From: Gammaproteobacteria bacterium
GTDB taxonomy: Bacteria > Pseudomonadota > Gammaproteobacteria > Steroidobacterales > Steroidobacteraceae
Direction: 5' to 3'
Assembly (NCBI GenBank): GCA_025359565.1
Contig: JANYFY010000009.1
Coordinates: forward strand, 124,001-188,000
Length of the DNA: 64,000 nt
Part shown: positions 3,134 to 20,703 of the stretch, in pieces
How positions within the stretch are numbered: the stretch's first letter is position 1
How the letters are laid out: each line of letters starts with the position of its first letter
Notes under the pieces: model-generated
Database searches by the model: none
Seen by the model: only the letters and a program-made list of their open reading frames with translations
What the model was told of the DNA's origin: nothing
Program-made: the position numbers and the translations under genes

Positions 3134-4042
3134 TTATCCGTACTCCCGATATTGCCAATTTGTAAAAGCCGACAATTTTCCAAGGTTAGCGGAAACCTTG
3201 GTAAGCCAATGTGCCGCATGGTGGCGACCCCATGGCCAAGAAACTACCGTCATAACAGCGGCGGCGAATGCCTGTAGCGCAGCGCGCAAGAAAAATCTAG
3301 TGCGATCCCATGTCGATAATTTTCCGTAGCGTCCGTTCAATGTGTGGCGAGCGAAATCCTGGCCGCCACTAAGTGCTCGCCGCAACAGCCATCGCAGCGA
3401 CAAACGCAGTGCCTCCACGGGCTCGTGAACGATAGCTTCATCGCACCACACGATGCGTGCTCCCTGTTGTGTAAGACGCGACAGCATGTCGCCGTCTTCT
3501 CCTCCTGTGAGGCCGTAGGCAGGATCGAATGGGCCATCGAGGCGCTGTAGCCAAGATCTGTGCAGCAATGCATTGCCGAATCTAAGCCGATTCGGCGGAA
3601 CTATGCTGCCCGTGGGCAAGCGGGGGAAATCGTAAAATTCCCCGCGACGAATCCAAAGCGGCGCGTCAAGAGGTATCACGGGAATAACTGGCCCCAACAC
3701 GCCATGGGCGGAAAAGAGTTTTGCGGCGCTCACTAGTTGTTCCAACCAAAGTTCAGGCGCGCGTTCGTCGTCATCAATAAATGCTACCCATTCGTGCTGG
3801 GTTAGCTCTACCGTCCTATTGCGCGTGAGTGAGATATTCTTTTTGGGTTGAATGTCATAACGAATAGCAAAAGGTGCACCTAACGCTATTCTTTTTTGCA
3901 CAACCAAACGCGCGCTCGCATCGGCATCGTTGTCAACTATGATTACTTCGTCAGGGAGACATCTCTGACGAGTCAAATCGCAGAGTAAGAGGCTAAGGCG
4001 GTCGGGTCGACGATACGTGGCAATGCAAAGACTAATGCTCAT
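3134..4042 (-). CDS. Family 2 glycosyltransferase
   Basis: About 302 residues. The ATG at 4042 overlaps the stop of the upstream kinase gene as TAATG, a typical translational-coupling junction; the longer frame to 4195 has an implausible Cys-rich leader. The protein starts SISLCIATYRRPDRL, the standard GT-A nucleotide-binding start, and has a metal-binding IDDDE at 89-93. A C-terminal stretch with amphipathic and hydrophobic segments (near FFLRAALQAFAAAVMTVVSW) suggests peripheral membrane attachment. It probably adds one sugar of the exopolysaccharide repeat unit on the cytoplasmic face. Donor and acceptor are unknown. It sits between the EpsG-like kinase and the processive glycosyltransferase. 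Confidence 0.82.
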   Translation of the reverse strand: MSISLCIATYRRPDRLSLLLCDLTRQRCLPDEVIIVDNDADASARLVVQKRIALGAPFAIRYDIQPKKNISLTRNRTVELTQHEWVAFIDDDERAPELWLEQLVSAAKLFSAHGVLGPVIPVIPLDAPLWIRRGEFYDFPRLPTGSIVPPNRLRFGNALLHRSWLQRLDGPFDPAYGLTGGEDGDMLSRLTQQGARIVWCDEAIVHEPVEALRLSLRWLLRRALSGGQDFARHTLNGRYGKLSTWDRTRFFLRAALQAFAAAVMTVVSWPWGRHHAAHWLTKVSANLGKLSAFTNWQYREYG

Positions 4043-4965
4043 TAGAAATGATTGAGCACTGCACCAAGTATCTTCGACTGAGTAGTTGCAAGGCGTCTGA
4101 GCATATCTCGTGTCGATTTGAATGATGTATGTTGAGCCCGGCTGACTACAAGGACTCGCGCTGCCATGGTGGCTATAGCCAAACCGTCGGCACATTGAGA
4201 AATCGGGGGTGTATCTAGTACCACAAACTCAAAATTATTTCGCCAATCGAGTAATAGTCTCTCGAATCGACCGTCCGACAGAAGTTCTAAAGGATTGCTT
4301 GGGATCGGCCCCGCCGTCAGCAAATGCATTTGCATTAAGCCGACTACCGGATGGTATTGAGGTTTTTCATTGCGAGAAATGGCTTGCGATAATCCATAGT
4401 CGTTAGTGGCACCAAATAATAGGTGCTGTTGGGGTTTGCGTAAATCTGCATCGACCAGTAACGTACGCCGTCCCAATTGGGCAAATGAAATAGCTAGTTC
4501 TGCCGCTAATTGTGAGCGACCCTCGCCAGCGCAGGGGCTTAAGACCGCTACCATGTTGGCACCACGGCCTTCATTCAGCAGCAACAGCTCCGTACGCAGT
4601 GCACGCAGCGTCTCGCTACGAGGATTGTCTGGATCGTGCGCAAGAATTAATTTCGCGCCTGGATTTACCCGTTCGCCCTGTCGTAACACCATTCGACGGT
4701 CGGAAGAAAGCTTGAGTATCGCAGTTTCGATCGGGCTGGTGGAATTCTCATTGCCTCCGCCTATTCGATCTAATGCTTGTTCGACATCTTCGGCGGTCAC
4801 AAATCCCATATGTTGTGCCATTTCGCTAAACTTTAAATGACTGGTCTCCATGGCTGCGTAAATGGCGTCAATTGCCTGCGGAGATAAGTGATAGTGCGCA
4901 ATCAATACAGCACGCAAGTCGCTTTCACTATCGTCACTAACAGTAGGCGGGAATTGCGCGCTCAT
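4042..4965 (-). CDS. epsG: EpsG-type chain-length tyrosine kinase (BY-kinase)
   Basis: A 307-residue cytoplasmic ATPase of the bacterial tyrosine kinase family that works with a Wzz-like membrane partner to control polysaccharide assembly. Residues ~1-70 are a helical domain and the MinD/ParA-like kinase fold follows. Its Walker A is SPCAGEGRSQLA: the usual Lys is Arg150. From memory, EpsG-type members carry GEGRS, so this may be a subfamily trait rather than a loss. Walker A' is LLVDADLRKPQ and Walker B is FVVLDTPP. The protein ends at GAVLNHF, with no C-terminal tyrosine cluster of the kind found in Wzc. The start overlaps the stop of the EpsF gene as ATGA. EpsG rather than MinD or ParA is supported by the flanking EpsF and EpsE genes. 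Confidence 0.85.
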   Translation of the reverse strand: MSAQFPPTVSDDSESDLRAVLIAHYHLSPQAIDAIYAAMETSHLKFSEMAQHMGFVTAEDVEQALDRIGGGNENSTSPIETAILKLSSDRRMVLRQGERVNPGAKLILAHDPDNPRSETLRALRTELLLLNEGRGANMVAVLSPCAGEGRSQLAAELAISFAQLGRRTLLVDADLRKPQQHLLFGATNDYGLSQAISRNEKPQYHPVVGLMQMHLLTAGPIPSNPLELLSDGRFERLLLDWRNNFEFVVLDTPPISQCADGLAIATMAARVLVVSRAQHTSFKSTRDMLRRLATTQSKILGAVLNHF

Positions 4966-6410
4966 GCAGTACCCAGTGTGGGTCCGATCGCATTAAATTC
5001 GACTAAAACGGGTACCGCAAAATCGCGCTCGAAATCATCGCGGCAGCGAATTCGACGATTAATCAATAACTCGTACACCAAGGGACCGAGAAAACCGAAT
5101 AAAAGACCGGTACCCACGCCCATCATTAGAATTTTAAGAATATTGGGCTTGCTGGGTTTTTGGGGCGGCACGGCACGACTCACAATGTAAATATTAGTAG
5201 TATGCGCGCCTGAAGCGAACATTATTTGATCGTAGCCGTCTAAGGCACGTTTATAGACGGATTGCGCGGAGTCAAGTTCAAGAACGTACTTTGTGCCCTC
5301 GTCTTGAAGTCGGCTTATACTGAGGACTTTGCGCCGTTGTTCTTCTACGTCGGTCCGCAACTTACTTTCTAACTGGCGGGCGGCACTCAAGTCTGAGGAT
5401 GCACCATTTGAGAAACCATGCACCGCCGCGCTTAAATTTCGTTGAGTCGCGTCAATTTGACTCTGTAGTTCAAGCACCTTCGGATGTTTAAAGCCCAGAG
5501 TTGCTCGCATTTGAGCGAGTTGTCCTCGAAGCAGATTGAGTTGGGACTTCAGAGCTTGGAACTCAGGAGTACCCGCAGCACCGGTGCTCAAATCCTGGTT
5601 AGCCATTGCTCGCACTTCAGCGTTGCGTCGCGCACTTTGCACTTCTTGTAATCGAGTCTCAAGACTCGATAGTAGGTCCGCCTCAATATTATTATTCTTG
5701 GCCGCCGCGTCTGTAACTCCGGTTCGCTGCCTAAACGCCGTCACCTGATCTTGGGCGGTGTGCACCTTGTTTTTTAGTTCTCCGAGTTCTTGCGCGTATC
5801 GTTTAGCGCGTTCGCTCGCTGGGCCGTATACCCTTTGGCGTTCTTGATCTAAGTATATTTCGGCCACTGAGTTCGCGATTTTCGACGCTAAAATCGGGTC
5901 GGAGGCTGTGGCCGTAACATAGACTAACTGGCTACCGTATTGACCTTGCACGATTTCTAAATCTTTTACTAAAATATCTTTAGCCCAACTTGGCAGTGTA
6001 CTCGCTTCGCCGCGATGACCTGCCGTATAGTGTTTCATGGTAGTTAGTTCGAGTCGCTCAATAACGGGAATCAAGACCTCTGCACTCAGCATTAACTGAA
6101 CTTCGGTTTGGATGTTATTGCTCGCCTGCGGTGCGCCTGGTGCGGCACCCGCTAGAGGCTCATTAGTCTCGTTACTGAACATGAGCGTGGCAGTCGCTGT
6201 GTAGGTCTTGGACAATGATTTGGCAAACAACGCCGCAAGCAAAATTGTGGCACCGGCAATAATCAACGCATGTTTTCGGTAAGCCCATAGAATCGTAATA
6301 ATTTGGGCCATAGACGGACCAGCACTAGCGTGATCTTGAGGTAACTCCGCATCCGACATGATAGGTGCTGCCGCTACCGACAGAACTGGCAAATTTCTAC
6401 GAGATCTCAA
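4962..6410 (-). CDS. epsF: EpsF-type chain length determinant (Wzz/GNVR)
   Basis: A 482-residue inner-membrane polysaccharide co-polymerase. One membrane segment lies near residues 48-66 (ALIIAGATILLAALFAKSL) and a second near 425-445 (ILMMGVGTGLLFGFLGPLVY). Between them is a long periplasmic coiled coil, and the second segment is preceded by the proline-rich VPPQKPSKPN typical of Wzz proteins. It lacks its own kinase domain; the separate EpsG gene overlaps its end by 4 bases, and its own start overlaps the end of epsE by 4 bases. An alternative start at Met18 (MSDAELPQD) is possible. It likely sets chain length and couples polymerisation to export through EpsE. Confidence 0.88.
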   Translation of the reverse strand: MRSRRNLPVLSVAAAPIMSDAELPQDHASAGPSMAQIITILWAYRKHALIIAGATILLAALFAKSLSKTYTATATLMFSNETNEPLAGAAPGAPQASNNIQTEVQLMLSAEVLIPVIERLELTTMKHYTAGHRGEASTLPSWAKDILVKDLEIVQGQYGSQLVYVTATASDPILASKIANSVAEIYLDQERQRVYGPASERAKRYAQELGELKNKVHTAQDQVTAFRQRTGVTDAAAKNNNIEADLLSSLETRLQEVQSARRNAEVRAMANQDLSTGAAGTPEFQALKSQLNLLRGQLAQMRATLGFKHPKVLELQSQIDATQRNLSAAVHGFSNGASSDLSAARQLESKLRTDVEEQRRKVLSISRLQDEGTKYVLELDSAQSVYKRALDGYDQIMFASGAHTTNIYIVSRAVPPQKPSKPNILKILMMGVGTGLLFGFLGPLVYELLINRRIRCRDDFERDFAVPVLVEFNAIGPTLGTA

Positions 6411-7282
6411 AAAATACTCTCCTTTACCCTTATAACATCATCAGCCTGTACCGGATCATTTGGTTTCGCTTTAGACGTGACGTAGTTGCCATCTGCGGCG
6501 TGCCGCTTAATCTCAACCCGTCTTTGGCTGCCACGGATCGAAATCCCGCCGGCTCGTGCAATAGCTTGAATTACCGTCATTCCAGACTCAATACGAAATT
6601 TTCCCGGTTGATTGACTTCACCATAAATGTAGAACTGTTCGGCGCGCGGGACAAAAATTGAATCTCCACCCCTCAGACCTTGAGTGGGAAGTGCTTTCAT
6701 GCCGTCGGTTAGTTCTTTTATGTTGATGGGGTAGCGAACTTCCCGGCCTTGGGGATCTGCGCGCAACAAATAAACCGTCTCTGAACCGGTCTCCGTGACG
6801 CCGCCGGCTTGTGCCAAGAGATCGATTATCGAGGTATTCGATTCAATCGCGTAACGCCCCGGGGTTCCGACCTGACCCAGAACTGACACGCGTTGACTAC
6901 GGGACTGAGTGACCGTCAGCGTTACATGTGGGTCAACCAGAAAATTGCCACGCTTTAACGCCAACTCAATTCTGCCGGCAGCACTCGCTGGCGACAATCC
7001 AGCAATTTGTACGGGGCCCGCAAGTGGCACAGGAATAGACCCATCGTCCGATACATAGACGGTGGCGCTCATGTCGGGCTGCCCGTAAACCAATATCGCA
7101 ACGCTGTCGCCCGCACCCAGTTGCAGCAAAGGCCCCGGCACAGAGGCTTTAGGTACCTCTGGGTTGGAGTTTATGGCGCTGCTAAAATCAACCGGAAGCA
7201 TTAATAGGCAAATTACTGACAGCGGAATTCTTAGCCTACTCCAATCAATACGCACTATCTGCCTCCACGCAATTTTGAACAA
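6407..7282 (-). CDS. epsE: EpsE-type polysaccharide export protein (Wza-like)
   Basis: A 291-residue periplasmic/outer-membrane export protein. Translation probably starts at a TTG (7282-7280): a GGAG lies 9 bases upstream, and the first 37 residues make a signal peptide (basic start, then PLSVICLLMLPV). No lipobox Cys is visible, unlike E. coli Wza. A polysaccharide export domain follows (LGAGDSVAILVYGQPDMS to TLTVTQSRSQRVSVLG), then two SLBB-like repeats, each beginning G-PG-(Y/F)-IES (GTPGRYAIES and QPGKFRIES). First gene of the operon epsE-epsF-epsG-GT-GT, with each successive start overlapping or abutting the previous stop. It should form the outer-membrane exit channel for the exopolysaccharide. 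Confidence 0.87.
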   Translation of the reverse strand: MFKIAWRQIVRIDWSRLRIPLSVICLLMLPVDFSSAINSNPEVPKASVPGPLLQLGAGDSVAILVYGQPDMSATVYVSDDGSIPVPLAGPVQIAGLSPASAAGRIELALKRGNFLVDPHVTLTVTQSRSQRVSVLGQVGTPGRYAIESNTSIIDLLAQAGGVTETGSETVYLLRADPQGREVRYPINIKELTDGMKALPTQGLRGGDSIFVPRAEQFYIYGEVNQPGKFRIESGMTVIQAIARAGGISIRGSQRRVEIKRHAADGNYVTSKAKPNDPVQADDVIRVKESIF

Positions 7283-7415: not shown

Positions 7416-8852
7416 TTGAAGCTTTTCGTGCAGTTGTCGCCTGCTTCGTGGCTTACTGCACGCGCAATCTTTGGGCAAGTTTTTGCCCTTGGGCTATTCG
7501 CGATTCAGGCACCATTACTCGGTCCACGAGCTTTTGGGCTCATTTCCATGGTGATGATATTTGTGGGGGCATGTGAATCGGTCTTAATCGAAGCCGCGGC
7601 GGAATCGCTCATATCGATTCGATCTATTGAGGATGAACACTACAGCACGATGACGAGTGTGAACGTCGGCATCGCGGTGTTATTCGGTATCGCGATTTTT
7701 GTTACTGCGCCGCTAATTGCGACTCTTTTCGGCGCTGCAAGCTTAGTGGCAATATTGCATTGGATGTCGATACTGCCCGCTGTCACGGCGTTTTCGGCAG
7801 CGCCGACGGCCGCTACTAAGCGAGACATGCAATTCAGACCTTTGGCCATTAGATCCATGGGCAGCGTGCTAGTGGGAGGAGGTGTGGGGTTGATTCTAAC
7901 CCTCGCGGGGGCGGGTGTCTGGGCCTTGGTCTGGCAGGCCCTTGTGACACGGCTGGTGGCTGCGTGGGTGCTTTGGTATGCAGTATCGTTGAAATTCCAA
8001 TTAGGATTCTCTAAGCGGCATTTTGACGATTTGCTGCGATTTGGGGTTCCGACCCTGTTGTCACGAGTAATGAACTGGGCAGGTGCGCAAGTTCCGCGAC
8101 TTATTCTGGGCATTTACTGGGGTCCCGTGCAGTTGGGGCTTTTCAGCCTTGCCAGTCGGTTAAGTGATATTTTAATGGAAATAGTGGTGGTACCACGTTA
8201 TGCCGTGGCACGTGTAGAATTGCGAAAATTTGCATTGATGCCAGCAAACTTCGATGCCGCTTTACGGCGAATATCGACTCGGATGAGTGTTTTTTGTTTT
8301 CCCGCTTGCATCGGCGGTGCTGTGGTTTTGCCGACTTTGTTCCACGTGTGGCTAAATCCTGGTTGGTATTTAGGGATTATCCCAGCCCAATTGATGCTGT
8401 TGATCTGCATGCCGTTGATAACTCACTACTGTGTGGGGGCTGCGCTACTGGCCTTGAATCATCAGTCCACCGAGGCGCTCGGATCCATCGCGCAAACAGT
8501 GGCCATTGTAATTATCGTATTTCTGTCGGCTCCTTTAAGTCTTAATGTTGCGTGTGCGGCGATTGCGTTGAGACCATTAGTATTGCTACCTGTACCGCTC
8601 GCACTATTAAAATTTCGCAGTGCAATACCAATCCGCACTCTCCTGAAGTCTCAGATCAGACCGCTAGTAGCGGCATTGCTGATGGGCACTTGTGTTTGGT
8701 TTTTGCGCGAATTTCTGTCGCATTTGGCAAATAAACTTATACTGTTAATGGTGCTGACCTGTACAGGCGCTCTCCTATACGGGCTATTAATTGTAGTATT
8801 GATGCCCGAATTTGCCTCAAGATACGGGTATCGCGCCACTAGCGAGAGTTGA
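7416..8852 (+). CDS. Wzx-like oligosaccharide flippase (MOP superfamily)
   Basis: A 478-residue polytopic membrane protein with about a dozen hydrophobic segments, matching polysaccharide flippases of the WzxC/MOP type that move undecaprenyl-linked repeat units across the inner membrane. The N-terminal part (LTARAIFGQVFALGLF, then LLGPRAFGLISMVMIFVG) follows the usual pattern of helix 1-2 separated by a G-P-x-x-F/Y-G turn. The start is a TTG at 7416; no ATG lies near and no strong ribosome binding site is seen, so the start is uncertain. It is divergent from epsE and its last 14 bases overlap, tail to tail, the end of the NRPS gene. An alternative role, exporting the NRPS product, cannot be excluded. 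Confidence 0.8.
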   Translation: MKLFVQLSPASWLTARAIFGQVFALGLFAIQAPLLGPRAFGLISMVMIFVGACESVLIEAAAESLISIRSIEDEHYSTMTSVNVGIAVLFGIAIFVTAPLIATLFGAASLVAILHWMSILPAVTAFSAAPTAATKRDMQFRPLAIRSMGSVLVGGGVGLILTLAGAGVWALVWQALVTRLVAAWVLWYAVSLKFQLGFSKRHFDDLLRFGVPTLLSRVMNWAGAQVPRLILGIYWGPVQLGLFSLASRLSDILMEIVVVPRYAVARVELRKFALMPANFDAALRRISTRMSVFCFPACIGGAVVLPTLFHVWLNPGWYLGIIPAQLMLLICMPLITHYCVGAALLALNHQSTEALGSIAQTVAIVIIVFLSAPLSLNVACAAIALRPLVLLPVPLALLKFRSAIPIRTLLKSQIRPLVAALLMGTCVWFLREFLSHLANKLILLMVLTCTGALLYGLLIVVLMPEFASRYGYRATSES

Positions 8853-11800
8853 CGCTATCTAACGTCGCCGCGATCTGAGCAGCCATTTGTACAACGCCCG
8901 GCTCGTTAAACATGGTGAAATGATCGCCGTCGATGAAAAACACCTCAACGCCGTCGGCAACGAATGGTTGCCAACCAGCAGTGCGCTCTGCAAACCAGCC
9001 AGCAGGTTCCCGACGACTGCGTAGCAGGGTTAATTTCCCAGGATATGTCTGTGGTTGGTATGTAGCACTAATTTTTTGCAAATAGGTCAATAACCATTGA
9101 TCGTAAGTTTCCGAGTTTGCGTAGTCTGCAATAAAAATATTTTCAGCGTTATGCTGAGTCGGAAAGAAAATTTTTGATATTTTTTTTACGAGCATTCGTT
9201 TCGCAAAAAAAGACGATAACGATTGAGCGCCAGACACCGCCTTGAACCAATCTCTGGCTATTATCTGCAATCGCATCGAGTAAGTCCCAATGAGCGCGCG
9301 TACTCTCGGTAGTCGATCTAAATATCGCGGTACCCACGAATCAATTAAGAATAAATGTGTAACCTCTTGGCCCGATTTCTTGATCTGACAAGCGATTTCA
9401 AACGCTAAAGCACCGGCCACGCACCAGCCCATCAAATCATAGGGGCCCTGCGGTTGAACACGACGAATTAGTTCGACATAGCCCGCAGCAATTTCTTCTA
9501 AGCTACTAGGTAACGAGGCGTTCCGCAGCGATGGATCAAATAACTGCAATGAGGTGACTGGTTGATCCGGACCTAAATATTTGGACAGGCCGAAAAATAT
9601 CCCTGTGTTATTAATGCCAATGAGTGGTGGTTTTAAACCGCCTGGCTGGATCTTGACCATTTGCCGAAAATCAAATTCCCTGGTGTGGGGTTTTCTTAAG
9701 ATATCAGCCAACCCCTTAATGGTTGGCGCAGCGAATAATGCCGCCAATCTTATTTTCCGATTAAATATTTTTTCTACTTGAACTAACATCCGCGCAGCAA
9801 GCAAAGAATGTCCGCCCAGCTCAAAAAAGTTATTCGTCGGTTCAGTCTTCTTAACTCGAAGTATCGAACACCATATTTTTTGCAATTTATCTTCGATTTC
9901 ATCCGATGACTGTACGTTAGCTGCCCGAACAGCGACCGGTCGGGAAAGTTTAAGCGAGCGACGATCTATTTCTCCATCTGCCATAAGCGGTAATGAATCG
10001 CTTAGCATAATTGGTGAAGGCACTAAGTCATGTGGCAACAGTTGCGCTAAGTTGTTTCGCAGTTCGGTCAACAACGCTTCTGAATCAGTGGTAGGCGTAC
10101 GCGATACTACGTATGCCGATATTGATCCGTTACCCGGATCGTCCCAGTGCACTACGGCTGCCTGGGCGACGTTTAGATGCCGTTGTAACAAGGCCTCAAT
10201 GCTTGCGGGATTAATGTGGCGGCCGCGAAAACTGAATTGATGGTCGGCGCGCCCCAGATATTCTAGCTGGCCATTTGATTTGAGCCGCGCTAGTGCGCCG
10301 GTCGCGCAAAGTCGTGAATCGGCAATGTTGTTGATAGGAGCAGTGACGAAAGAGTTGCCTACGGTTAGTCTGTCACCCCCAATGTACAAGTTGCCGGTTG
10401 CGCCTACCGGTGATGGTTGAAAAGACGCGTCTAATACACACAATGCCATATTTGCTAATGGCTTTAAGTCAAAAAACGCATGATTTGGATTTACTCGCGC
10501 CGCAGACGACACGACGCTCGACTCAGTTTGGCCGTAAAGTGCCCAGAGCTCACCGCCCATGCGCGATAATTGATCTGCTAGTTGCGAGTTTAATTCACTG
10601 ACCGAACATAGCATTTTTAACGATGGGTGGCCTACCCATCCAGCTGATAATAGGTTGCGCCATAGGGTGGAAGAAGCCTGCATCGTGGTTGCTCCGCAAT
10701 GCTGCACTAACTGCAGCAGTTTACGGCCGTTCTCGAGGTCAAGTTCAGTGGGTAATACTAGGCGGGCACCTGCGAGGAGTGGCAAAAGTATTTCCACTGA
10801 CGAAATGTCGAGCGATATGTTGGATGTGGCAATCAACGTATCTCGTTCGCTAAATCTTAAGCGACTAGACAGTGAATAAATCAGATTCACAAGGTTTCCG
10901 TGTGTCAGCGCTACACACGACCCATCGGTGGCATCGGCTCGGTACATCAAGCAAGCATTTGTCGCAACGTCGCCGGAATGCAACCACTTGCGTTCTATTT
11001 CGCGCGCAATCGATGGAATAATTGAATTAATTACTATGCTACGACTGCGGATATCCCACGATAAATCTGACCTTTGAATTATGGCAAAGGCGTTAGAAAC
11101 CTTGGTCACGGCTACACGATGTGCGGTTGGGTCTTTTGGGTCTAACACTAAAAAGGTGGCGCCTAATTTGAGAATGGCTAGAATGTTGATCGCTAACTCT
11201 AGCGATCGTTCTATGCATACCGCGACTACCGCCCCGGCCGTCACGCCCTTTTCGCTCAAGTAGTAAGCGAATTTCTCTGCTGCGCTGTTGAGGTCGGAGT
11301 AGCTAAGTTGGCGACCATCGAAACTGATTGCGATAGCGTCGGGCAAGCGCATAACTTGCATTTCGAATAACTTCGAAACTGTAAGTTCGCGTGGATACAA
11401 CGCGCGGCAATCATTTAATCTATTCGTTAATACCCTGGCTTCACCGGCCACGGGCAACGTGAGGTCTGAAATACGTTTGCTCGGATTGGATATGGCACTT
11501 CCCATGGCATTTTGAAAATAAGCGATTAGACGCTCGGCGGTTTCAGATTCAAACTGGTCAGTATTATATTGGCATGAGAACCGCCACCCATCGGGACGCT
11601 CAACCATAAAAAAATTCAGATCGTAAATTGCGCCCGTGGGAAGGGAAGGTAAATCTACGAGTGAAAAGGAGGAATATCGGGTGTTTTGAATAAACGTTTT
11701 CTGAAAAATGAAGTTGACCGATATAGCCGGAGAATTCCCATCTGCGCGTTCTGGCTTTATCAAACCTAACAATTGTTCGATTGGTATATGTCTGTGCTCT

Positions 11801-12846
11801 AACGCTTGCGCAGTTGTCTCTGCAATTCGTCCGAGTAGCTCATTGAACGGCGGATCGTCGCTTAAGTTATTACGTAGAATTAGGGAGCTGACAAATTGCC
11901 CGATCATGGGCTCTAGTTCCACTTGATCACGCCCAGAGACTTGGGTGCCCAGGACTATATCGCCCGCATTTGCGACGCGCGCGAGTACAGCACAAAGACT
12001 GGCTAAGGCTGTGGTAAACAGAGTTGTTCCGTGATTGACACTCAACGCTTGGGCTTTATTAGTCAATTCACGAGGTAACACGCGCGATGCGATGGCTCCG
12101 TTGGTCGTGGGTAGCCCGGTCCGTGCGCGATCTGGCAGAATCTTAAATGGCTTTGCGCCCGCAAGCTGATGGGTCCAATACGTCGTTTCTTCCGCAGTGC
12201 CACGGACTTTTAGCCACTCAAGTTGCCACAGCGAATAATCCGCATACTGAATGGCGAGCGGCTCTAACATAACGGGTTCTTCGCGGGATAGCGCTTCGTA
12301 GATCAAACCCATTTCTCGCGCCATTATGCCGATAGACCAACCGTCAGACACGATTTGATGGGTGGTCACTAATATAACGGCGACATCGAGACTCAACCTT
12401 AAGAGAGTGACCCTGAGCACCGGACTTGTGGTCAGGTCAAACGGTGCACGAGCCTCAATAACCCCAATTCGATCAGCTTCTATCTGGGCTGTTTCGGACG
12501 ACATATGCGATAAATCAATCTCGATTAATTTAAACGCGGCCCGGTCCCGTACTCTTTGGGTAATAACTCCGTGTAGTTCAAGAAACTGAGTTCGTAAAAT
12601 TTCGTGACGCTCTATAATGGTATCCCACGCCGTTTGCAGCAAGCTTGTGGAGAGTAATCCCTCAAGGCGCCATCTGACAGCCACGTTGTAGGACGAGTTG
12701 CCAGGGTCTAAGCGATCCAGTAGCCAAAAGCGTTCCTGTCCCACAGAACAGGGGAAATCGGTGCGATTGGAACTGGTCATCGTAGGTACCGCATCGCCTT
12801 CAACTGCAGAGAACGAATTTGCTACATAGTTGGCGAGCTTAGTCAT
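8839..12846 (-). CDS. NRPS terminal module C-A*-T-TE with degenerate A domain
   Basis: A 1335-residue protein. The C domain (~25-460) has HQIVSDG in place of HHxxxDG: His163 is kept but the second, catalytic His is Gln164. The A domain (~475-970) keeps its overall length but lacks the SGSTGxPKG P-loop (ADATDGSCVA near 635), has TGA for TGD (A851), YGQTE for YGPTE, and DGEIDR for NGKVDR so the A10 Lys is Glu959. The T domain is intact (LGGHSLLA, Ser1014). The TE domain (~1060-1335) has GWCVAG with Cys1142 for the usual Ser; Asp1169 lies 27 residues on, the same spacing as in surfactin TE, and His1309 is in GDHF. The frame is open throughout. It starts 3 bases after the PKS-NRPS stop, so it is the second protein of the line. 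With no working A domain it probably adds no residue of its own. Confidence 0.9.
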   Translation of the reverse strand: MTKLANYVANSFSAVEGDAVPTMTSSNRTDFPCSVGQERFWLLDRLDPGNSSYNVAVRWRLEGLLSTSLLQTAWDTIIERHEILRTQFLELHGVITQRVRDRAAFKLIEIDLSHMSSETAQIEADRIGVIEARAPFDLTTSPVLRVTLLRLSLDVAVILVTTHQIVSDGWSIGIMAREMGLIYEALSREEPVMLEPLAIQYADYSLWQLEWLKVRGTAEETTYWTHQLAGAKPFKILPDRARTGLPTTNGAIASRVLPRELTNKAQALSVNHGTTLFTTALASLCAVLARVANAGDIVLGTQVSGRDQVELEPMIGQFVSSLILRNNLSDDPPFNELLGRIAETTAQALEHRHIPIEQLLGLIKPERADGNSPAISVNFIFQKTFIQNTRYSSFSLVDLPSLPTGAIYDLNFFMVERPDGWRFSCQYNTDQFESETAERLIAYFQNAMGSAISNPSKRISDLTLPVAGEARVLTNRLNDCRALYPRELTVSKLFEMQVMRLPDAIAISFDGRQLSYSDLNSAAEKFAYYLSEKGVTAGAVVAVCIERSLELAINILAILKLGATFLVLDPKDPTAHRVAVTKVSNAFAIIQRSDLSWDIRSRSIVINSIIPSIAREIERKWLHSGDVATNACLMYRADATDGSCVALTHGNLVNLIYSLSSRLRFSERDTLIATSNISLDISSVEILLPLLAGARLVLPTELDLENGRKLLQLVQHCGATTMQASSTLWRNLLSAGWVGHPSLKMLCSVSELNSQLADQLSRMGGELWALYGQTESSVVSSAARVNPNHAFFDLKPLANMALCVLDASFQPSPVGATGNLYIGGDRLTVGNSFVTAPINNIADSRLCATGALARLKSNGQLEYLGRADHQFSFRGRHINPASIEALLQRHLNVAQAAVVHWDDPGNGSISAYVVSRTPTTDSEALLTELRNNLAQLLPHDLVPSPIMLSDSLPLMADGEIDRRSLKLSRPVAVRAANVQSSDEIEDKLQKIWCSILRVKKTEPTNNFFELGGHSLLAARMLVQVEKIFNRKIRLAALFAAPTIKGLADILRKPHTREFDFRQMVKIQPGGLKPPLIGINNTGIFFGLSKYLGPDQPVTSLQLFDPSLRNASLPSSLEEIAAGYVELIRRVQPQGPYDLMGWCVAGALAFEIACQIKKSGQEVTHLFLIDSWVPRYLDRLPRVRALIGTYSMRLQIIARDWFKAVSGAQSLSSFFAKRMLVKKISKIFFPTQHNAENIFIADYANSETYDQWLLTYLQKISATYQPQTYPGKLTLLRSRREPAGWFAERTAGWQPFVADGVEVFFIDGDHFTMFNEPGVVQMAAQIAATLDSVNSR

Positions 12847-12849
12847 TAA

Positions 12850-15800
12850 TTATTTACGAAGCCGATTACGTTGGAATTGACCCAACGTCGGGAGTGGTTC
12901 CGCTCGATCGTGTGCAGGGTCCAATAAACTTGCCTCGATTACCTTGCCTAGACTTGCCGCAGTACGCGATTGCAGTAGTTGCTTAGCCGTGATTTTAATG
13001 CCTGCGCGGTTCGCGCGCGCGGTAATCTGAAATAATTGAATCGAGTCGGCCCCTAGTTTCAATAGATCTGAGTTTATGCTGACACGCTGCATCCCCAGTA
13101 CTTCCTCAAATATCTTGGTCAAAGTTTCCTCCGCGGTTGTCCTCGGGGCCACAAAATCTTCTGCTACTAATGTACTCGATTCTGGCATAGGTAACGCCTT
13201 ACGATCCACTTTCCCGTTTGGAGTCAGTGGCAGCGTCTCCAAGCGTAACCAAGTGGATGGAATCATGTACTCGGGCAGCTCAACCGCTATAAGCGAACGT
13301 ATCTGATCATAGGAGCGGTTAACACCGGTTTTTTCCACAAAAAAGGCCATCAAACGCGGCGTTCCAGCGGCATCATTGCGCAATATCACTGACGCGGCGG
13401 CGACCTGCGCGGTTTTGGTAAGAACAGCTTCAATTTCGCCAAGTTCAATACGAAAACCGCGTAGTTTGACTTGTTGGTCGGTACGGCCCAACACGTGTAC
13501 CCCTAGGCCCGGCATAGAACGCGCCAAATCACCGGTTCGATACAGCCGTTGCGGCTCCTTAGGATTTGTAGGAGCAAAGGGATTGTGAATGAATTTCTCG
13601 GCGGTTAGAGCATCCCGATGATAGTAGCCGCGAGCCACCCCGTCACCTCCAATGTGAAGTTCGCCTGGAACTCCATAGGGTAACGGTTGGTCGTTAGGGT
13701 CCAAAACATAAAACTGTGTATTGGCGATTGGCGCACCTACCGTGATCGGAGTTTTACCGGGCATCACTCGAATGCATGAAGACCAAATAGTCGTTTCGGT
13801 CGGTCCGTACATATTCCAAAGTTCACCATTGCCTTGTAGGAGCCGATCGGCAAGTTCGCGCGAAAGAGCCTCACCGCCGCACAACATTTTAAAGCCAGGC
13901 CTAGCTTGAAAGCCCGCCTCCAATAGGAGACTCCAACCGGAAGGCGTGGCCTGCATAGCGGTGGCCTTCACCGCATCAAGTTGCTTTAACAGCCGAAATC
14001 CATCGATCACAGCGTCCCGCTCGGCGATCACGACTTTAGCACCAACCAGCAGAGGTAAAAACAACTCAAGACCTGCAATATCAAAGGATATAGTAGTAAC
14101 CGCACAAAATACGTCCGTTTGGTTGAGCCCCGGAGTTTTTGCCATGGACGTTAGCAAGTTAATAACCGCGCGATGGCCAATTTCAACGCCCTTCGGAGCG
14201 CCAGTGGAACCTGATGTATAGATGACATAGGCCAAGCTATCGGCGTCTGAGAGTAGCGCGGGGGCAGTAATAGAAGCCGATGCAATGGCTTTAACATCGC
14301 GTAAAACGTCGATGACGGGTACTGCATTACCGACTAGGGTGGCGTTCTCGGAGCCATCCGAAATTAATGCGCTTACCTTAGCTTCTTCGAGTATATATTT
14401 GAGGCGGCTCGCTGGGTGCATAGGGTCTAGTGGTAGATAGGCGCATCCAGCCTTGAGCACGGCGAGCAAAGCGACAAGCATGTCGAGCGAGCGCTCGACC
14501 GAGACGCCAATCAATGGTTGCGATTTGCTTGCACCTTGGATGCGTTCACGCAGCACATTGCAGAGCTGGTTGGCACGCTCATCCAGCATTTGATAGGTCA
14601 GTGTCGAATCACCGAACTGCGCAGCCACCGCATGAGGGGTCGCACGCGCTTGCGCTTCGATTAGTTGATGTAAAGTGCTGTTACGCGGGTATTGGGCTGC
14701 GGTTGCACCGACACTAGTCATCAGTGTCGAGTACTCAGCAGCGGGTAAACAGGAAGTCTTGACTAGCGGTTGATCTATATCCGCGACAATAGATTCCAGT
14801 AGTGCTCGATAACATTCGAGCCAATGATCAACCGTGTTGGCGTCAAAAAGATCCGAGTTATAGTCGCAGTCCATGCGCAATCCATCGGTGGATTCGATAA
14901 CATTCAAAAATAAGTCAAAATTTACGAAGGCTTTAGCATTCGGTTCAACATCGACTTGTAAGTTTCCTAAGGTTATGCGATCTGCCAATCGTTCGAGGTT
15001 GAACTGAACTTCAACGAGAGGTAGCCGTCCCGGTTCGCGGGGCAGATTTAATTTTTGAACCAAAGTGCCAAACGTATAGTCCTGATGTTCAAAAGCATCG
15101 ATCACGTGTTTGGCGTTTTGGGCGAGATATTGTGCCACGGAGGTGGTTTTTTCCCACCTGCCACGAAGCGCTAAAAAATTCACGCAATGTCCCACTAAAA
15201 TCTTATCTTCCACCAGCGATTGACCCGCGGTAGGCACGCCGATAATGACTTCATTCTGACTACTAAGCCGGCCCATTAACGCTTGAAAAGTCGAGAGTAG
15301 GGTGACAAATAATGTACTGCCGCGACTGGCGCCAGCTTTCTTAACGGCCTGGTATAGTTTTTTCTCTATGCGATGACAGCGGCTGCCGCCCTTAAAGGAT
15401 TTGGCGCTGGGGCGCGGTCGGTCGGTGGGCAATTCTAACGTTGAGGAAGGTGTAGAAAATTTTTCGAGCCAAAAATTTTCAATCTTCGCAATATTTTCTG
15501 GGTCCCTTGCAGCCTGTTGACCCGCATAGGTACTGAAGTTAAGCACTTCTGCCAATACTGGCGTGCCGCCGCGAAGATACGCAGAATAGATTTCCGCTAG
15601 TTCGTTGACCAAAACGTTAAAGGACCAACCATCGCAGATAATGTGATGCGCAGTGAGCATCAGAGCGTGACCACTCGCCGGTAAGTGTACTAGGTGGGCG
15701 CGAATCGCCGCTCCGTGGACAAGATCAAAGGGCGTCGCGGCGTCGCTGTCCAGTATTTTTTTAAATAAGGCTTCCGCGTCCTCGCTCGCATAGCCTGACA

Positions 15801-18800
15801 AATCGGTCACCGGGCAATTAAACGGCTTGATAGGGGAAAACAGCATGGCTTCGCCAGTAGGACTGAATGTGGCGCGCAGTGCATCGTGCCGTGCCAGTAA
15901 TAAATTCATAGCTTTTTGCAATGTTGGAACGTCTAGTTGTCCCTGCATCCGCAAAGTGATCGATTCGTTAAATGCGCATGATGCCGCATCGCCTAACTGG
16001 GCTGACAACCATACTTCGATTTGACTTTCTGTTAACGAAACTGCACTCGGTTGAGGAGCGCCAAGAATGCCGACGGTCTGTAATGACGCTAAACTTTCCT
16101 TGAAGGCAAAAAATATTCGCTCCAGATCTTGGTCGGAATGCGCGGTAGTTAGAAAACACGGAAATCCCTCTTGGATGTGAATGCCGCGCTCACGCAAGTG
16201 ATAATAAAACAAACTCGCAAGCGGATGTTCGTTGTGAAAATTAAAATAAAACCAGCTCGAATAACTTTCGATGACAGTTTTGACTCCTTGAGTCATAAAC
16301 AGCTCGTTTAATCGCGAAACCAAGGCTGCCGTACGGGTGTTAAGATTCTCCTGCAACGTGGGTCCTTGTTCCCGCAAATGGTTAAGTACTGCCCAGATAG
16401 CTGCCAGCGTTAACGGGTGCCTTACGAAAGTTCCGGCGAAAAAAGTCACTCCGACTTCGGGTACCGAGTCATCGCCAAAACTCCATTGACCGCCGTCCAG
16501 AGCGTCCATGAACTTTGCTTTACCGGCCAATACGCCGACGGGCATGCCGCCGCCAATGACTTTGCCGTAGGTCACCAGGTCCGCTTGTATGCCGGTAACC
16601 GCTTGCATGCCACCAATGTGAACTCGGAACCCCGTGACGACTTCGTCCATGACGAAGGCTGTTCCCGAATCGGCAGTAATCTGGCGCACCTCGCGTAAAA
16701 AATCGAATGGTCTTAAGTTGGGATGCCGACTTTGCACGGGTTCGACGATAACCGCTGCGAGGTCGGCGGCATTATCGCGAATCCATTGCAGACTTTGCGG
16801 AGTTCCATAATCCAAAACCACCATTTTATCGACGGAGGTTCTAGGTATGCCTGGTGCAACGGGTACAGATCTCGGGGAGGCATTGCCTCGCTGTACGCCC
16901 TTGACCAGTACTTCATCGAATTGACCGTGATAGTCGCCATTAAAAATGGCGATCTTTTCACGACCGGTTACCGTGCGCGCAATGCGCATAGCCGCCATTA
17001 CCGCTTCAGAACCAGTATTGCAGAAGGTCATGCGCTCATTGCCAGTGAGTTCAGTAAATAATGTGGCGATTTTGCAAGCAAGCTCGGCTTGCGGTCCGAT
17101 GGCGAATCCTTGCTCCAACTGACGCTTAACGGCTTCAACTACGAAGGGCGGACAGTGACCAAACGCGGTTTGTCCGAAGCCGTTAACCACATCGATGTAT
17201 TCGTTGCCATCCACATCGGTAATTTTGGATCCCGCGGATTTTTCGCTCACAATCGGATAGACCATCTCCTTCCATTCGCTTCTGAATCCTGCGGCTGCGC
17301 GCGGGTCGGCCAGACTTGCGCGATGCGCCTGAGTAATGCGTTTTGATCCGGCAGTCTTTTGCGTATAGCGGTGGATTAAGGAGTCGATGTGCTTGTGCTG
17401 AGCCGCAGTGACGGCGCTACGCACCACACTTTGCACGGGCTTGAACACGGCGTAACGCGAGGGACTTTCCTCGTTTAAATCCGCTACAGGCTGAACTACG
17501 GCTGCTGGCTGAAGTACGGCGGCTGGGAGCGGTGCCGTTGCCGGCAGCGTAACGGCCGGTGATCTCTGCAACATTTCAAATTGACGGTTAATTAACTGCG
17601 ACATAGCCTCAAGCTGTTCGCGAAAAATTCCTTCCATAGCGGATTTGGGTGTGGGAGCGGCAATTGAGGGTAGTACAGCCGTGGCAACCGGTGGTAGTCG
17701 CGGCTCCAACGCCGGGGCTGCCGGCACCCCTTGGTTAGCAAGGTAGGCTGCTAAGGTGGGTATGCTGGATAACTCTCCGAGTAATTGCCTAAAAGTGATT
17801 TTTACTTTCAATTCACTTTGAATTTTTTGTGCCACTTGAGTCAAAAACAGCGAGTCGTAACCCATTTCTAGGAAACTTAAGGCGGAATCATCAGCAGGTT
17901 TATCGCCGGAGAGCTCTTCGATGAGACTGGCAATTCGCGTGCGCAAGGTAGCGTGAGGTTGTTCTATGGGCTTAAGACTCATCGTACTTTCGTCCTGAGG
18001 TTGAGTTTGTTTCGGCGTCATCCAGTGTCGGCTGCGCTCAAAAGGATAGGTGGGAAGCGAAATGCGCTTTGAGGGGTTTTTGTGTACGCTTGCCCAATTG
18101 GGTTGGTAACCGTATTTCCAAATTTTTCCAAGAGCGTTGAGCAGAACATCACGGTCATTGTCTGCACGGGTTGAGTCTTGCAAAGAGGTAACCACGGGTA
18201 TGCTATGTCCGCGTGTGGCCTGCAGCGTTAGGGTCGATAGTGCATTTCCAGGGCCGACCTCAATCATGATCGAGTCATTGGTACTAGTCAGCTTAGTGAT
18301 GCCATCGGCAAAACGAACCGGCGCACGTGCGTGATTCGCCCAGTATTGCGGTGAGGTTGCCTGTGCGGCGCTAATCCAGTCTCCCGTTACACATGAGATA
18401 TAGGGAATATGGGGCGACTTGAGGCTTAATCCCTGAAGCTGTTGCAGTAATGGCAAGATCACTGGATCGACCATGGCCGAGTGGAAAGCATGCGAGGTGT
18501 GTAATCGGCGACTAACAGTGTTGGTCGCTGCCAGTGATATTTCGAATGCGTCCACGGCCTCAAACGGGCCGGAAACGACGCACAGTGAGGGACCGTTGAT
18601 TGCCGCAATGGATAGCGATGAACTAAGTTGACTCTGTAATTCTGCCTCTGGCAGGCGTACCGCGAGCATTGCACCTCGAGGTAAGGACTGCATGAGTCGT
18701 CCCCGAGTGGCGACTACCCTCAGTGCCTCCTCTAATGACATGACTCCCGCCAATACGGCCGCTACAAACTCGCCGATACTATGACCTATCATCGCGTCTG

Positions 18801-20703
18801 GGCGAACTCCCCAGCTCATCCAGAGTTGTGCTAAAGCGTACTCGATACTAAATAGGGCGGGTTGCGCGGCACCCGTCTCCATGAGTCGTTGCTGGGTATC
18901 ACTAGAAGTAAGCGCAGGATAGAGTAAATCAAGCAAATTGCTGTGCATAAATGGCGTTAAAATTCGAGCACAGTGTTCGATATGGCGACGGAATTCTGGC
19001 TCGCGCTCGTAAAGATTGCGACCCATATCCGAGTACTGGGATCCTTGGCCTGGAAACATGAATACGATTTTAGGATTAGTTTTTAAAGGTTGCGCAATTT
19101 GGGCTTTGGTGTCGCTTTCGTTAAGGCGAGTAATAGCGTCCAGGGCCGTGTGCGCAACCAAGGTAAATCGATGATCAAAAGCGCGGCGACCGACCTGTAA
19201 GGTGTATGCCACATCGTTTAACGAGGACGTAGGATGTGCTGCTAAATATTGACTTAACTCAATGCGCGCCACTTGCAATGCGGCGGTGCTACGCGCGGAC
19301 AAAACAATGAGTTGCGAAAAGGGCGGATTTTGTTTTGATTCGTCTGCCGCCGCAGGCCTCGCGGGAAGTTTGGGTGCTTGTTCAAGCACTACGTGTACGT
19401 TAGTGCCCCCGACTCCGAAAGCGCTCACCCCAGCTCTGCGTATTTTTTCGGAATCCGGCCACGGCGTGAGTTTGTCATTGACAAAAAACGGTGTTTTAGA
19501 AAAATTGATTTGTTTGTTGGGATGCCGGTAATGCAGCGTAGGGGGCAACGCCTGAAACTTAAGTGACAAGGCGGTTTTGATCAGTCCGGTGATTCCAGCG
19601 GCAGCGTCGAGATGTCCGATATTGCTTTTTACCGATCCTACGGCGCAGAACTGTAAATCAGCGGTACTGGATTGGAATGCTTTGGTCAAACCTGCAATTT
19701 CAATGGGGTCACCTAAAGGGGTGGCTGTCCCATGGCATTCCACATAACCAATGGAGCGTGCGTCAACGCCGGCTGCGGTGAGAGCCATTTCTATGACGGC
19801 CGCTTGACCTTCGACGCTAGGGGCCGTGAATCCAACCTTGCTGGCGCCGTCGTTGTTGACGCCGCTGCCGCGAATCACGGCATAGATATGATCACCATCA
19901 GCAATCGCATCCTCTACTCGTTTGAGCAACACCACCCCCGCGCCGCTGCCAAAGATAGTACCGCTGGCTGCGTCGTCAAAAGGGCGACAGGTACCGTCGG
20001 CTGATACCATCGCGCCTTCTAGGTGCTGGTAGCCGCGCTTCTGCGGAAAAGTTGCGGAAACACCGCCCGCTAGAGCCATATCTGATTCATAAACGAGTAG
20101 GCTTTGACAGGCTTGTGCGACTGCTAGCAATGAGGTGGAGCAGCCGGTTTGAAGCGTAAAGCTTGGACCCCTAAGGTCTAGTTTGTAAGAGACGCGCGTG
20201 GCTAAAAAATCAGCGCCGGCACCAAGCAACATCGGATAGCAGCCCACTTGATAGCTACTTGTGAATTCCTCAATTGTCTTGCGATCGACGCAAATATTAT
20301 TGAGAAAATAGGTATTCATACTCGAGCCTGCAAAAACGCCAATAGCGCCCTGATATCGGGCGGGGTCATAACCCGCATCCTCAAGCGCTTCCCAGGAAAT
20401 TTCCAAAAATATTCGATGCTGAGGGTCGGTTAGAGCTGCCTCTTTAGCGTACATGCCAAAAAAATCCGCGTCGAACAGATCGACGTCGTCGAGGATGGGC
20501 CGAGCTTTAACGAAATTAGCTGCTGCACGGATCTCGGGACTAAAACTGTCTTCAAGCTCAGCGTCGTTAAAGCGGGTAATCGATTCAACACCTGCACATA
20601 GATTTTGCCAAAATTCGGCAATGGTCTTCGCGCCTGGGAATCGTCCCGACATACCGACGATCGCAATGCCGCCAACGGCCAGGTCAGTATTTGAAGTCGA
20701 CAT
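12850..20703 (-). CDS. Hybrid PKS-NRPS: KS-AT-ACP-aminotransferase-C-A-T
   Basis: A 2617-residue megasynthase. KS ~10-430: Cys188 in QTGCSTS, with ECHGTATPLGDPIE and NIGHLDAAAG supplying both His. AT ~545-840: GHSIGE with Ser642 and HAFHS, the malonyl-type signature. ACP ~920-990: Ser951 in MGYDSL. An Ala/Pro-rich linker follows. Class III PLP aminotransferase ~1120-1545: DEVVTGFR and Lys1381 in YGKVIGGG, like glutamate-1-semialdehyde aminotransferase. C ~1552-1985: intact HHIICDG (1686-1692). A ~2010-2505: intact SGSTGAPKG (Lys2171), TGD and NGKVDR. T ~2525-2590: Ser2554 in LGADSI. The order is that of microcystin McyE without its methyltransferase. It should extend an acyl chain by malonate, convert the beta-keto to a beta-amino group, and couple it to the A-domain amino acid; my reading of the pocket, D-I-L-Q-L-G-M-I-W-K, suggests Gly. 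There is no loading domain, so the starter must arrive in trans. Confidence 0.93.
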   Translation of the reverse strand: MSTSNTDLAVGGIAIVGMSGRFPGAKTIAEFWQNLCAGVESITRFNDAELEDSFSPEIRAAANFVKARPILDDVDLFDADFFGMYAKEAALTDPQHRIFLEISWEALEDAGYDPARYQGAIGVFAGSSMNTYFLNNICVDRKTIEEFTSSYQVGCYPMLLGAGADFLATRVSYKLDLRGPSFTLQTGCSTSLLAVAQACQSLLVYESDMALAGGVSATFPQKRGYQHLEGAMVSADGTCRPFDDAASGTIFGSGAGVVLLKRVEDAIADGDHIYAVIRGSGVNNDGASKVGFTAPSVEGQAAVIEMALTAAGVDARSIGYVECHGTATPLGDPIEIAGLTKAFQSSTADLQFCAVGSVKSNIGHLDAAAGITGLIKTALSLKFQALPPTLHYRHPNKQINFSKTPFFVNDKLTPWPDSEKIRRAGVSAFGVGGTNVHVVLEQAPKLPARPAAADESKQNPPFSQLIVLSARSTAALQVARIELSQYLAAHPTSSLNDVAYTLQVGRRAFDHRFTLVAHTALDAITRLNESDTKAQIAQPLKTNPKIVFMFPGQGSQYSDMGRNLYEREPEFRRHIEHCARILTPFMHSNLLDLLYPALTSSDTQQRLMETGAAQPALFSIEYALAQLWMSWGVRPDAMIGHSIGEFVAAVLAGVMSLEEALRVVATRGRLMQSLPRGAMLAVRLPEAELQSQLSSSLSIAAINGPSLCVVSGPFEAVDAFEISLAATNTVSRRLHTSHAFHSAMVDPVILPLLQQLQGLSLKSPHIPYISCVTGDWISAAQATSPQYWANHARAPVRFADGITKLTSTNDSIMIEVGPGNALSTLTLQATRGHSIPVVTSLQDSTRADNDRDVLLNALGKIWKYGYQPNWASVHKNPSKRISLPTYPFERSRHWMTPKQTQPQDESTMSLKPIEQPHATLRTRIASLIEELSGDKPADDSALSFLEMGYDSLFLTQVAQKIQSELKVKITFRQLLGELSSIPTLAAYLANQGVPAAPALEPRLPPVATAVLPSIAAPTPKSAMEGIFREQLEAMSQLINRQFEMLQRSPAVTLPATAPLPAAVLQPAAVVQPVADLNEESPSRYAVFKPVQSVVRSAVTAAQHKHIDSLIHRYTQKTAGSKRITQAHRASLADPRAAAGFRSEWKEMVYPIVSEKSAGSKITDVDGNEYIDVVNGFGQTAFGHCPPFVVEAVKRQLEQGFAIGPQAELACKIATLFTELTGNERMTFCNTGSEAVMAAMRIARTVTGREKIAIFNGDYHGQFDEVLVKGVQRGNASPRSVPVAPGIPRTSVDKMVVLDYGTPQSLQWIRDNAADLAAVIVEPVQSRHPNLRPFDFLREVRQITADSGTAFVMDEVVTGFRVHIGGMQAVTGIQADLVTYGKVIGGGMPVGVLAGKAKFMDALDGGQWSFGDDSVPEVGVTFFAGTFVRHPLTLAAIWAVLNHLREQGPTLQENLNTRTAALVSRLNELFMTQGVKTVIESYSSWFYFNFHNEHPLASLFYYHLRERGIHIQEGFPCFLTTAHSDQDLERIFFAFKESLASLQTVGILGAPQPSAVSLTESQIEVWLSAQLGDAASCAFNESITLRMQGQLDVPTLQKAMNLLLARHDALRATFSPTGEAMLFSPIKPFNCPVTDLSGYASEDAEALFKKILDSDAATPFDLVHGAAIRAHLVHLPASGHALMLTAHHIICDGWSFNVLVNELAEIYSAYLRGGTPVLAEVLNFSTYAGQQAARDPENIAKIENFWLEKFSTPSSTLELPTDRPRPSAKSFKGGSRCHRIEKKLYQAVKKAGASRGSTLFVTLLSTFQALMGRLSSQNEVIIGVPTAGQSLVEDKILVGHCVNFLALRGRWEKTTSVAQYLAQNAKHVIDAFEHQDYTFGTLVQKLNLPREPGRLPLVEVQFNLERLADRITLGNLQVDVEPNAKAFVNFDLFLNVIESTDGLRMDCDYNSDLFDANTVDHWLECYRALLESIVADIDQPLVKTSCLPAAEYSTLMTSVGATAAQYPRNSTLHQLIEAQARATPHAVAAQFGDSTLTYQMLDERANQLCNVLRERIQGASKSQPLIGVSVERSLDMLVALLAVLKAGCAYLPLDPMHPASRLKYILEEAKVSALISDGSENATLVGNAVPVIDVLRDVKAIASASITAPALLSDADSLAYVIYTSGSTGAPKGVEIGHRAVINLLTSMAKTPGLNQTDVFCAVTTISFDIAGLELFLPLLVGAKVVIAERDAVIDGFRLLKQLDAVKATAMQATPSGWSLLLEAGFQARPGFKMLCGGEALSRELADRLLQGNGELWNMYGPTETTIWSSCIRVMPGKTPITVGAPIANTQFYVLDPNDQPLPYGVPGELHIGGDGVARGYYHRDALTAEKFIHNPFAPTNPKEPQRLYRTGDLARSMPGLGVHVLGRTDQQVKLRGFRIELGEIEAVLTKTAQVAAASVILRNDAAGTPRLMAFFVEKTGVNRSYDQIRSLIAVELPEYMIPSTWLRLETLPLTPNGKVDRKALPMPESSTLVAEDFVAPRTTAEETLTKIFEEVLGMQRVSINSDLLKLGADSIQLFQITARANRAGIKITAKQLLQSRTAASLGKVIEASLLDPAHDRAEPLPTLGQFQRNRLRK

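Follow-up and report, generated by a model that had tools for sequence, protein, structure and literature searches.

A degenerate adenylation domain in the terminal C-A*-T-TE module of a PKS-NRPS locus among polysaccharide genes

The locus and the state of its adenylation domains

The stretch of DNA analysed here, which we call the window, comprises 64,000 nucleotides of a gammaproteobacterium of the Steroidobacteraceae (contig JANYFY010000009.1, positions 124,001 to 188,000). On its reverse strand, a single uninterrupted open reading frame of 1335 codons (8839..12846) encodes a 1335-aa protein whose Pfam domains give it a terminal C-A*-T-TE layout. A condensation (C) domain (residues 29-473, 11428..12762; PF00668, E 3.2e-83) is followed by a degenerate adenylation domain, designated A* (residues 476-966, 9949..11421), a thiolation (T) domain (residues 986-1049, 9700..9891; PF00550, PP-binding) with Ser1014 in the motif GGHSL, and a thioesterase (TE) domain (residues 1083-1321, 8884..9600; PF00975), all on the same strand. 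A* is defined by matches to PF00501 and PF13193 (AMP-binding, residues 494-828; AMP-binding_C, residues 883-958), by loss of motifs and by a predicted A fold, and its extent lies near the 9880-11420 given in the original prediction. By Pfam and motif analysis, it is an inactive A domain inside an otherwise complete module.

The A3 P-loop of A* has been reduced to the remnant YRADATDGSCV (residues 635-645, 10912..10944, minus strand as for the other motifs), which reads YRADATDGSC where YTSGSTGxPKG is expected. The A7 motif is TGA (ATGA; residues 849-851, 10294..10302), with Ala851 in place of Asp, and A10 is DGEIDR (residues 957-962, 9961..9978), with Lys959 changed to Glu. A5 reads YGQTE (residues 771-775, 10522..10536) and retains Glu775, as A4 retains Asp680. 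Measured against a functional A domain, the P-loop [ST]G[ST]TGxPKG, the A7 Asp and the A10 Lys are thus missing and the A5 Glu is present. These losses are as the original prediction described them, and the A8 Lys872, replaced by Ser, has to be added to its list. Its assertion that each altered position is essential went too far: the Pro of A5 is dispensable, since an intact stand-alone A-T protein of the same genome reads YGITE, and neither the A5 Glu nor the A4 Asp has been lost. Judged from these motifs, A* is almost certainly catalytically inactive.

The T and TE domains had been described as intact. This holds for the carrier serine (the 'T1014' of the original prediction is to be understood as the T domain at position 1014, the carrier residue itself being Ser1014) and for the catalytic triad, and it overlooked two substitutions. 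The C-domain motif is HQIVSDG (residues 163-169, 12340..12360, minus strand), in which Gln164 takes the place of the second His of HHxxxDG; according to a review, that His helps to position the acceptor amine (PMC11546977). In the TE domain, the nucleophile is Cys1142 (GWCVAG; 9421..9423, minus strand) instead of the usual Ser, presumably forming a triad with Asp1169 and His1309.

The upstream gene (12850..20703, minus strand) encodes the partner, a KS-AT-ACP-AMT-C-A-T protein of 2617 aa by Pfam, whose A domain is intact (13189..14658, minus strand; Pfam and motifs). By pocket position numbering, its code is DILQLGMIWK and that of A* is DIVQLSLVVE; the former is presumably Gly-type. The C-terminal tail of the partner, LPTLGQFQRNRLRK (12853..12894, minus strand), is presumed to be a docking peptide, and its motif LP[TS]L[GA]QFxR is kept in all nine complete partner tails. 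A 4'-phosphopantetheinyl transferase gene (20948..21667, plus strand; PF17837, PF01648) follows, and polysaccharide genes surround the module: EpsG-, EpsF- and EpsE-like EPS export genes (4042..7282, minus strand; NCBIfam), a Wzx-type polysaccharide flippase (7416..8852, plus strand; PF13440), a WcaJ-type undecaprenyl-phosphate glucose phosphotransferase (21664..23067, minus strand; TIGR03023 above cut-off), a DegT-type sugar aminotransferase (23157..24323, plus strand; PF01041, E 6e-106) and a GT2 gene. This locus accounts for both of the condensation domains in the genome (3.14 Mb in 33 contigs, 98% complete). A Wzx flippase homologue lies within ~8 kb of the module in 8/8 relatives with a readable flank, and a cupin-like gene is found near it in seven of the same eight; this neighbourhood points to a function at the cell surface, as far as gene context can indicate one. 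In the ORF lists of six relatives (L026, L038, L030, L031, L018, L013), an alpha/beta hydrolase gene, recognized by motif or sequence, was observed near C-A*-T-TE; none was seen beside the module in our window.

The window also holds a sigma-54-type response regulator with an open frame (24320-25744, minus strand) that is 84% identical to that of the relative G021. It has lost the Walker B Asp (LLLAEVG versus LLLDEVG) and the GAFTGA-type loop (GTLDGT versus GAFAGA), and by its sequence looks like a second catalytically dead enzyme in the window.

The stand-alone A-T gene and a cupin-like gene sit on another contig, away from the PKS-NRPS genes (cupin-like gene at 7816-8778 and A-T at 8754-10739 of L020, G000:C30); in G021 the corresponding pair is directly upstream of the KS gene. 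Among the eight A-T codes that were read, five are DAFWLGGTFK (L011, at 3738-5750, L022, L026, L038 and L031) and three, our own, G010 and G021 (L020, L021, L016), are DFWNIGMVHK, which for our genome is presumably Thr-type. The loading A-T has thus been exchanged between relatives while the downstream modules stayed unchanged. L031 has an A-T and the KS fused in one protein, G018 has overlapping genes for the two, and in G021 the A-T lies just upstream; most likely, therefore, the A-T serves the KS as its loading module and does not charge T1014.

Relatives, rates of change and an intact outgroup

Of 23 genomes of the genus, 5 contained the gene in a protein search at E <= 1e-150. Further records, from Nevskia and other Gammaproteobacteria, came from scanning named genomes with peptide patterns; these peptides were taken from the C domain, so the scan did not select on the state of the A domain. 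The family sample consists of ten distinct members with a readable C domain, nine with a readable P-loop stretch and eight that are complete. Further sampling at E <= 1e-180 across the order (396 genomes) and the class (369 genomes) gave no additional orthologue, only fragments or copies of known ones (G367 and G391, matching L030 and L032 by eye), together with two unrelated active modules (G032, G575) and one informative gene, in G486.

The P-loop is gone in all nine orthologues that can be read at that stretch. Among members with a residue at the site, the A3 Lys643 is kept in 0/8, the A8 Lys872 in 0/6 and the A10 Lys959 in 0/7; the A7 Asp persists in six of eight, the A5 Glu in four of eight and the A4 Asp likewise in four. 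The replacement residues at A3 and in the pocket vary from member to member without a common substitute motif, and L030 and L031 are missing the whole C-terminal subdomain of A. The open frame that the original prediction stressed is found not only here but in 7/7 complete orthologues. The partner's A domain keeps SGSTGxPKG in 10/10 genomes, a count to be read with the fact that the domain was located by the same motif, which none of the ten proteins was missing. Given an intact partner A domain in the relatives, the loss of the P-loop in A* appears to be more than chance, and the alignments make a convincing case that loss of adenylation is old, common to the relatives and progressive, and not the accident of one broken gene.

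How fast, and where, has the module changed? Across the eight complete members, mean identity is 68.2% for C, 60.6% for T and 56.3% for TE, and falls to 35.9% for the A core and 32.7% for the A C-terminal subdomain. In four members of the same genus, A* is 45.0% identical (dN 0.52), versus 72.0% (dN 0.22) for the partner's intact A domain. Synonymous change in A* exceeds nonsynonymous change (pS 0.68, dN 0.52); synonymous sites are saturated (pS 0.66-0.72), and the values therefore serve as relative rates only and not as a proper dN/dS. On these alignments, relaxation or fast evolution is limited to the A domain and the rest of the module is spared; relaxed selection across the whole module, which the original prediction had named as evidence against its view, was not seen. 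Of 79 columns that are near-invariant in 20 intact A domains, A* retains 332/592 cells, distributed as 112/265 in the core motifs and 220/327 elsewhere; the Fisher value for this comparison serves as description only, since it counts the related sequences as if they were independent. Catalytic positions thus seem to have been lost ahead of structural ones. Structure prediction, which had been proposed as a check, gave an A*-T model with mean pLDDT 84.3 and pTM 0.77 that folds like a normal A-T, with an ANL core and a C-terminal subdomain, and Foldseek aligned it at TM 0.79 to LgrA (5es8) and EntF (5t3d); nine of the 17 rows of the underlying alignment were intact A domains, which biases the model toward a normal fold.

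The carrier serine is kept in 8/8 members, and the Cys, Asp and His of the TE, assigned as a triad by position, in the same 8/8 and in G486. All ten family C domains have HQxxxDG, which occurs in 0/88 of the others among 98 distinct C domains scored across all loci examined, a small sample skewed to the order and searched with a profile built from eight C domains, four of them family members. Within that sample, we reject the idea that HQ is a common C-domain variant.

The outgroup G486, from another family of the class, encodes a C-A-T-TE protein with a Cys TE (L050, 4006-8202, minus strand). Its motifs read HHIVSDS, SGSTGRPKG, YGPTE, TGD and NGKID; both the C-domain His and the A domain are therefore intact. 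The gene adjoins a PPTase and EpsF and EpsG homologues, and no other condensation-domain gene was found in the genome. The C-domain tree joins G486, a long branch, to the family (100/99), and the A tree keeps the eight A* together (100/100). Since G486 retains both HH and a working A domain, the His to Gln change in C and the loss of A go together, and the trees suggest that both arose on the branch leading to the family, in either order.

Candidate explanations for a module with a dead A domain

Based on these observations, we propose that the dead A domain is a spacer within a release module whose acceptor is other than an A-loaded residue, a reading of sequences to which we assign a probability of roughly 45%. 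The chain would arrive on the carrier domain of the partner; A*, still folded, would act as a spacer separating C from T; and the termination module would add no A-selected residue. The HQxxxDG C domain would use an acceptor not chosen by A*, perhaps a free amine. A part in folding, relay or release would account for the retention of T and the Cys thioesterase. The parts of this proposal are not equally firm. That A* serves as a folded spacer is probable. The original prediction had spoken of a structural or recognition domain, and the structural half of that description stands; a recognition surface is disfavoured because the pocket differs from relative to relative, the A core is 36% identical and two relatives have dispensed with a subdomain. 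That the acceptor is not an amino acid loaded by an A domain onto T is a tentative idea with a little less than even odds; we prefer it because the family combines loss of the A domain with a substitution at the C-domain acceptor site, and neither is seen in the outgroup. Against the proposal, the conserved carrier Ser and TE triad would be superfluous in a pure free-amine release, although the glidonin product was also lost when T13 was mutated; and the C13 domain of glidonin, a possible analogue, keeps HH and its second His matters (PMC10587159).

Could T1014 instead be charged by another A domain, either the Gly-type domain of the neighbour or the Thr-type stand-alone A-T, with C still performing a condensation? 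We regard such loading in trans or between modules as less likely. It has been described in SidD (PMC10192304) and in albicidin, ramoplanin and enduracidin (PMC8949500); HQ C domains can still form amide bonds (PMC11546977); and all eight members conserve both the carrier Ser and the TE triad. A* seems to derive from an A domain with a code close to that of the neighbour (DIVQLSLVVE versus DILQLGMIWK), so the neighbour could stand in for it, and a stand-alone A-T does exist in the genome, on another contig. However, the fusion, overlap and upstream position noted above mark that protein as a probable loading module for the KS, and loading in trans does not predict the His to Gln change in C, which is absent from the outgroup with its working A domain. 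The same change at the acceptor-positioning site, found in 10/10 C domains, would suit a distinctly less probable arrangement in which C moves the chain off the carrier of the partner and onto T1014 with no residue added, and release or cyclisation is left to the Cys thioesterase. The conservation of C (68.2%), T and TE while A* drifts, and the docking-like tail in 9/9 partners, also agree with a pass-through; against it, we know of no characterised NRPS C domain that acts in this way, and our literature search, within the parts of the sources it covered, turned up no obvious case.

The remaining explanations concern A* itself. If the domain were functionless and on its way to being lost, its fast, lineage-specific change and the deletion of a subdomain in L030 and L031 would be readily understood. 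Such plain decay is nevertheless very unlikely: an A core is still present in all eight complete members, structurally invariant positions have been kept more often than motif positions (220/327 versus 112/265 cells) and synonymous change outweighs nonsynonymous change (pS 0.68 against dN 0.52, with pS saturated). Least credible of all is that A* still adenylates through an unusual mechanism. Its own copy keeps the A5 Glu and A4 Asp and is predicted to fold normally, but the relatives share no replacement motif, A3 and the pocket differing in each, and two of them do without the subdomain that bears A8 and A10.

To return to our proposal of a spacer and an acceptor that is not A-loaded, the polysaccharide genes around the module invite a guess at what that acceptor might be. 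We think it improbable, if worth stating, that the HQ C domain moves a short amino-acid/polyketide chain with a Gly-type end onto an exopolysaccharide amine, with A* a mere spacer. The DegT gene adjoins the sugar transferase in our genome, G018 and G021. A DegT-made amino sugar as acceptor was considered and rejected as a rule, because both Nevskia genomes (G770, G771) show weak family matches alone (best matches to DegT-type aminotransferases at 1.4e-6 and 1.2e-6).

Known systems and implications

Inactive A domains are already known. The nearest likeness is glidonin, whose terminal C-A*-T-TE module likewise contains a non-functional A and in which C13 of C13-A*-T13-TE adds free putrescine, A*-T13 is needed for stability and mutation of T13 also abolished the product (PMC10587159). 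The need of A* for folding is known there and proposed here. The glidonin A* is a C-terminal subdomain alone, whereas here the core is kept and it is the C-terminal subdomain that two relatives have lost; glidonin has HH and a double TE with Ser, compared with HQIVSDG and a single Cys TE; and its acceptor is putrescine, while a free amine is suggested in our case. Streptothricin ORF18 likewise has Gln where the C motif normally has its second His, and its HQxxxDM domain acylates an aminoglycoside (PMC11546977); that protein is a C-PCP with HQxxxDM, however, and ours has HQxxxDG within C-A*-T-TE. In albicidin, ramoplanin and enduracidin, an inactive A is complemented by stand-alone A-T proteins (PMC8949500), and SidD has an inactive second A, so that its A1 loads T2 as well as T1 (PMC10192304). 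All four contain, as here, an A without working core motifs in an otherwise complete module; they differ in that our A-T resembles a PKS loading module, our C has HQ and loading in trans is hypothetical. A Cys nucleophile, as here, is also found in the thioesterases of SulM (PMC11298585) and ObiF (PMC6668435), but the Gln-Cys-Asn motif of SulM is absent, the family having Trp-Cys-Val/Ala and our protein Trp-Cys-Val. In the portions of the literature searched, we did not find the combination of an HQ C domain, an eroding A core, a Cys TE, a conserved polysaccharide locus and an intact relative.

What are the implications of such a family? It provides a natural series within one module, running from an intact A domain in G486 through loss of motifs to loss of a subdomain while the other domains are conserved. 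With this series one can test which portion of an A domain is required by an NRPS purely as a scaffold, and whether a C domain that exchanges His for Gln also changes its acceptor. It also carries a warning, as specificity predictors would assign to this module a residue that is probably never added. For the organisms that share it, the common loss points to an ancient rebuilding of the last step of the enzyme.
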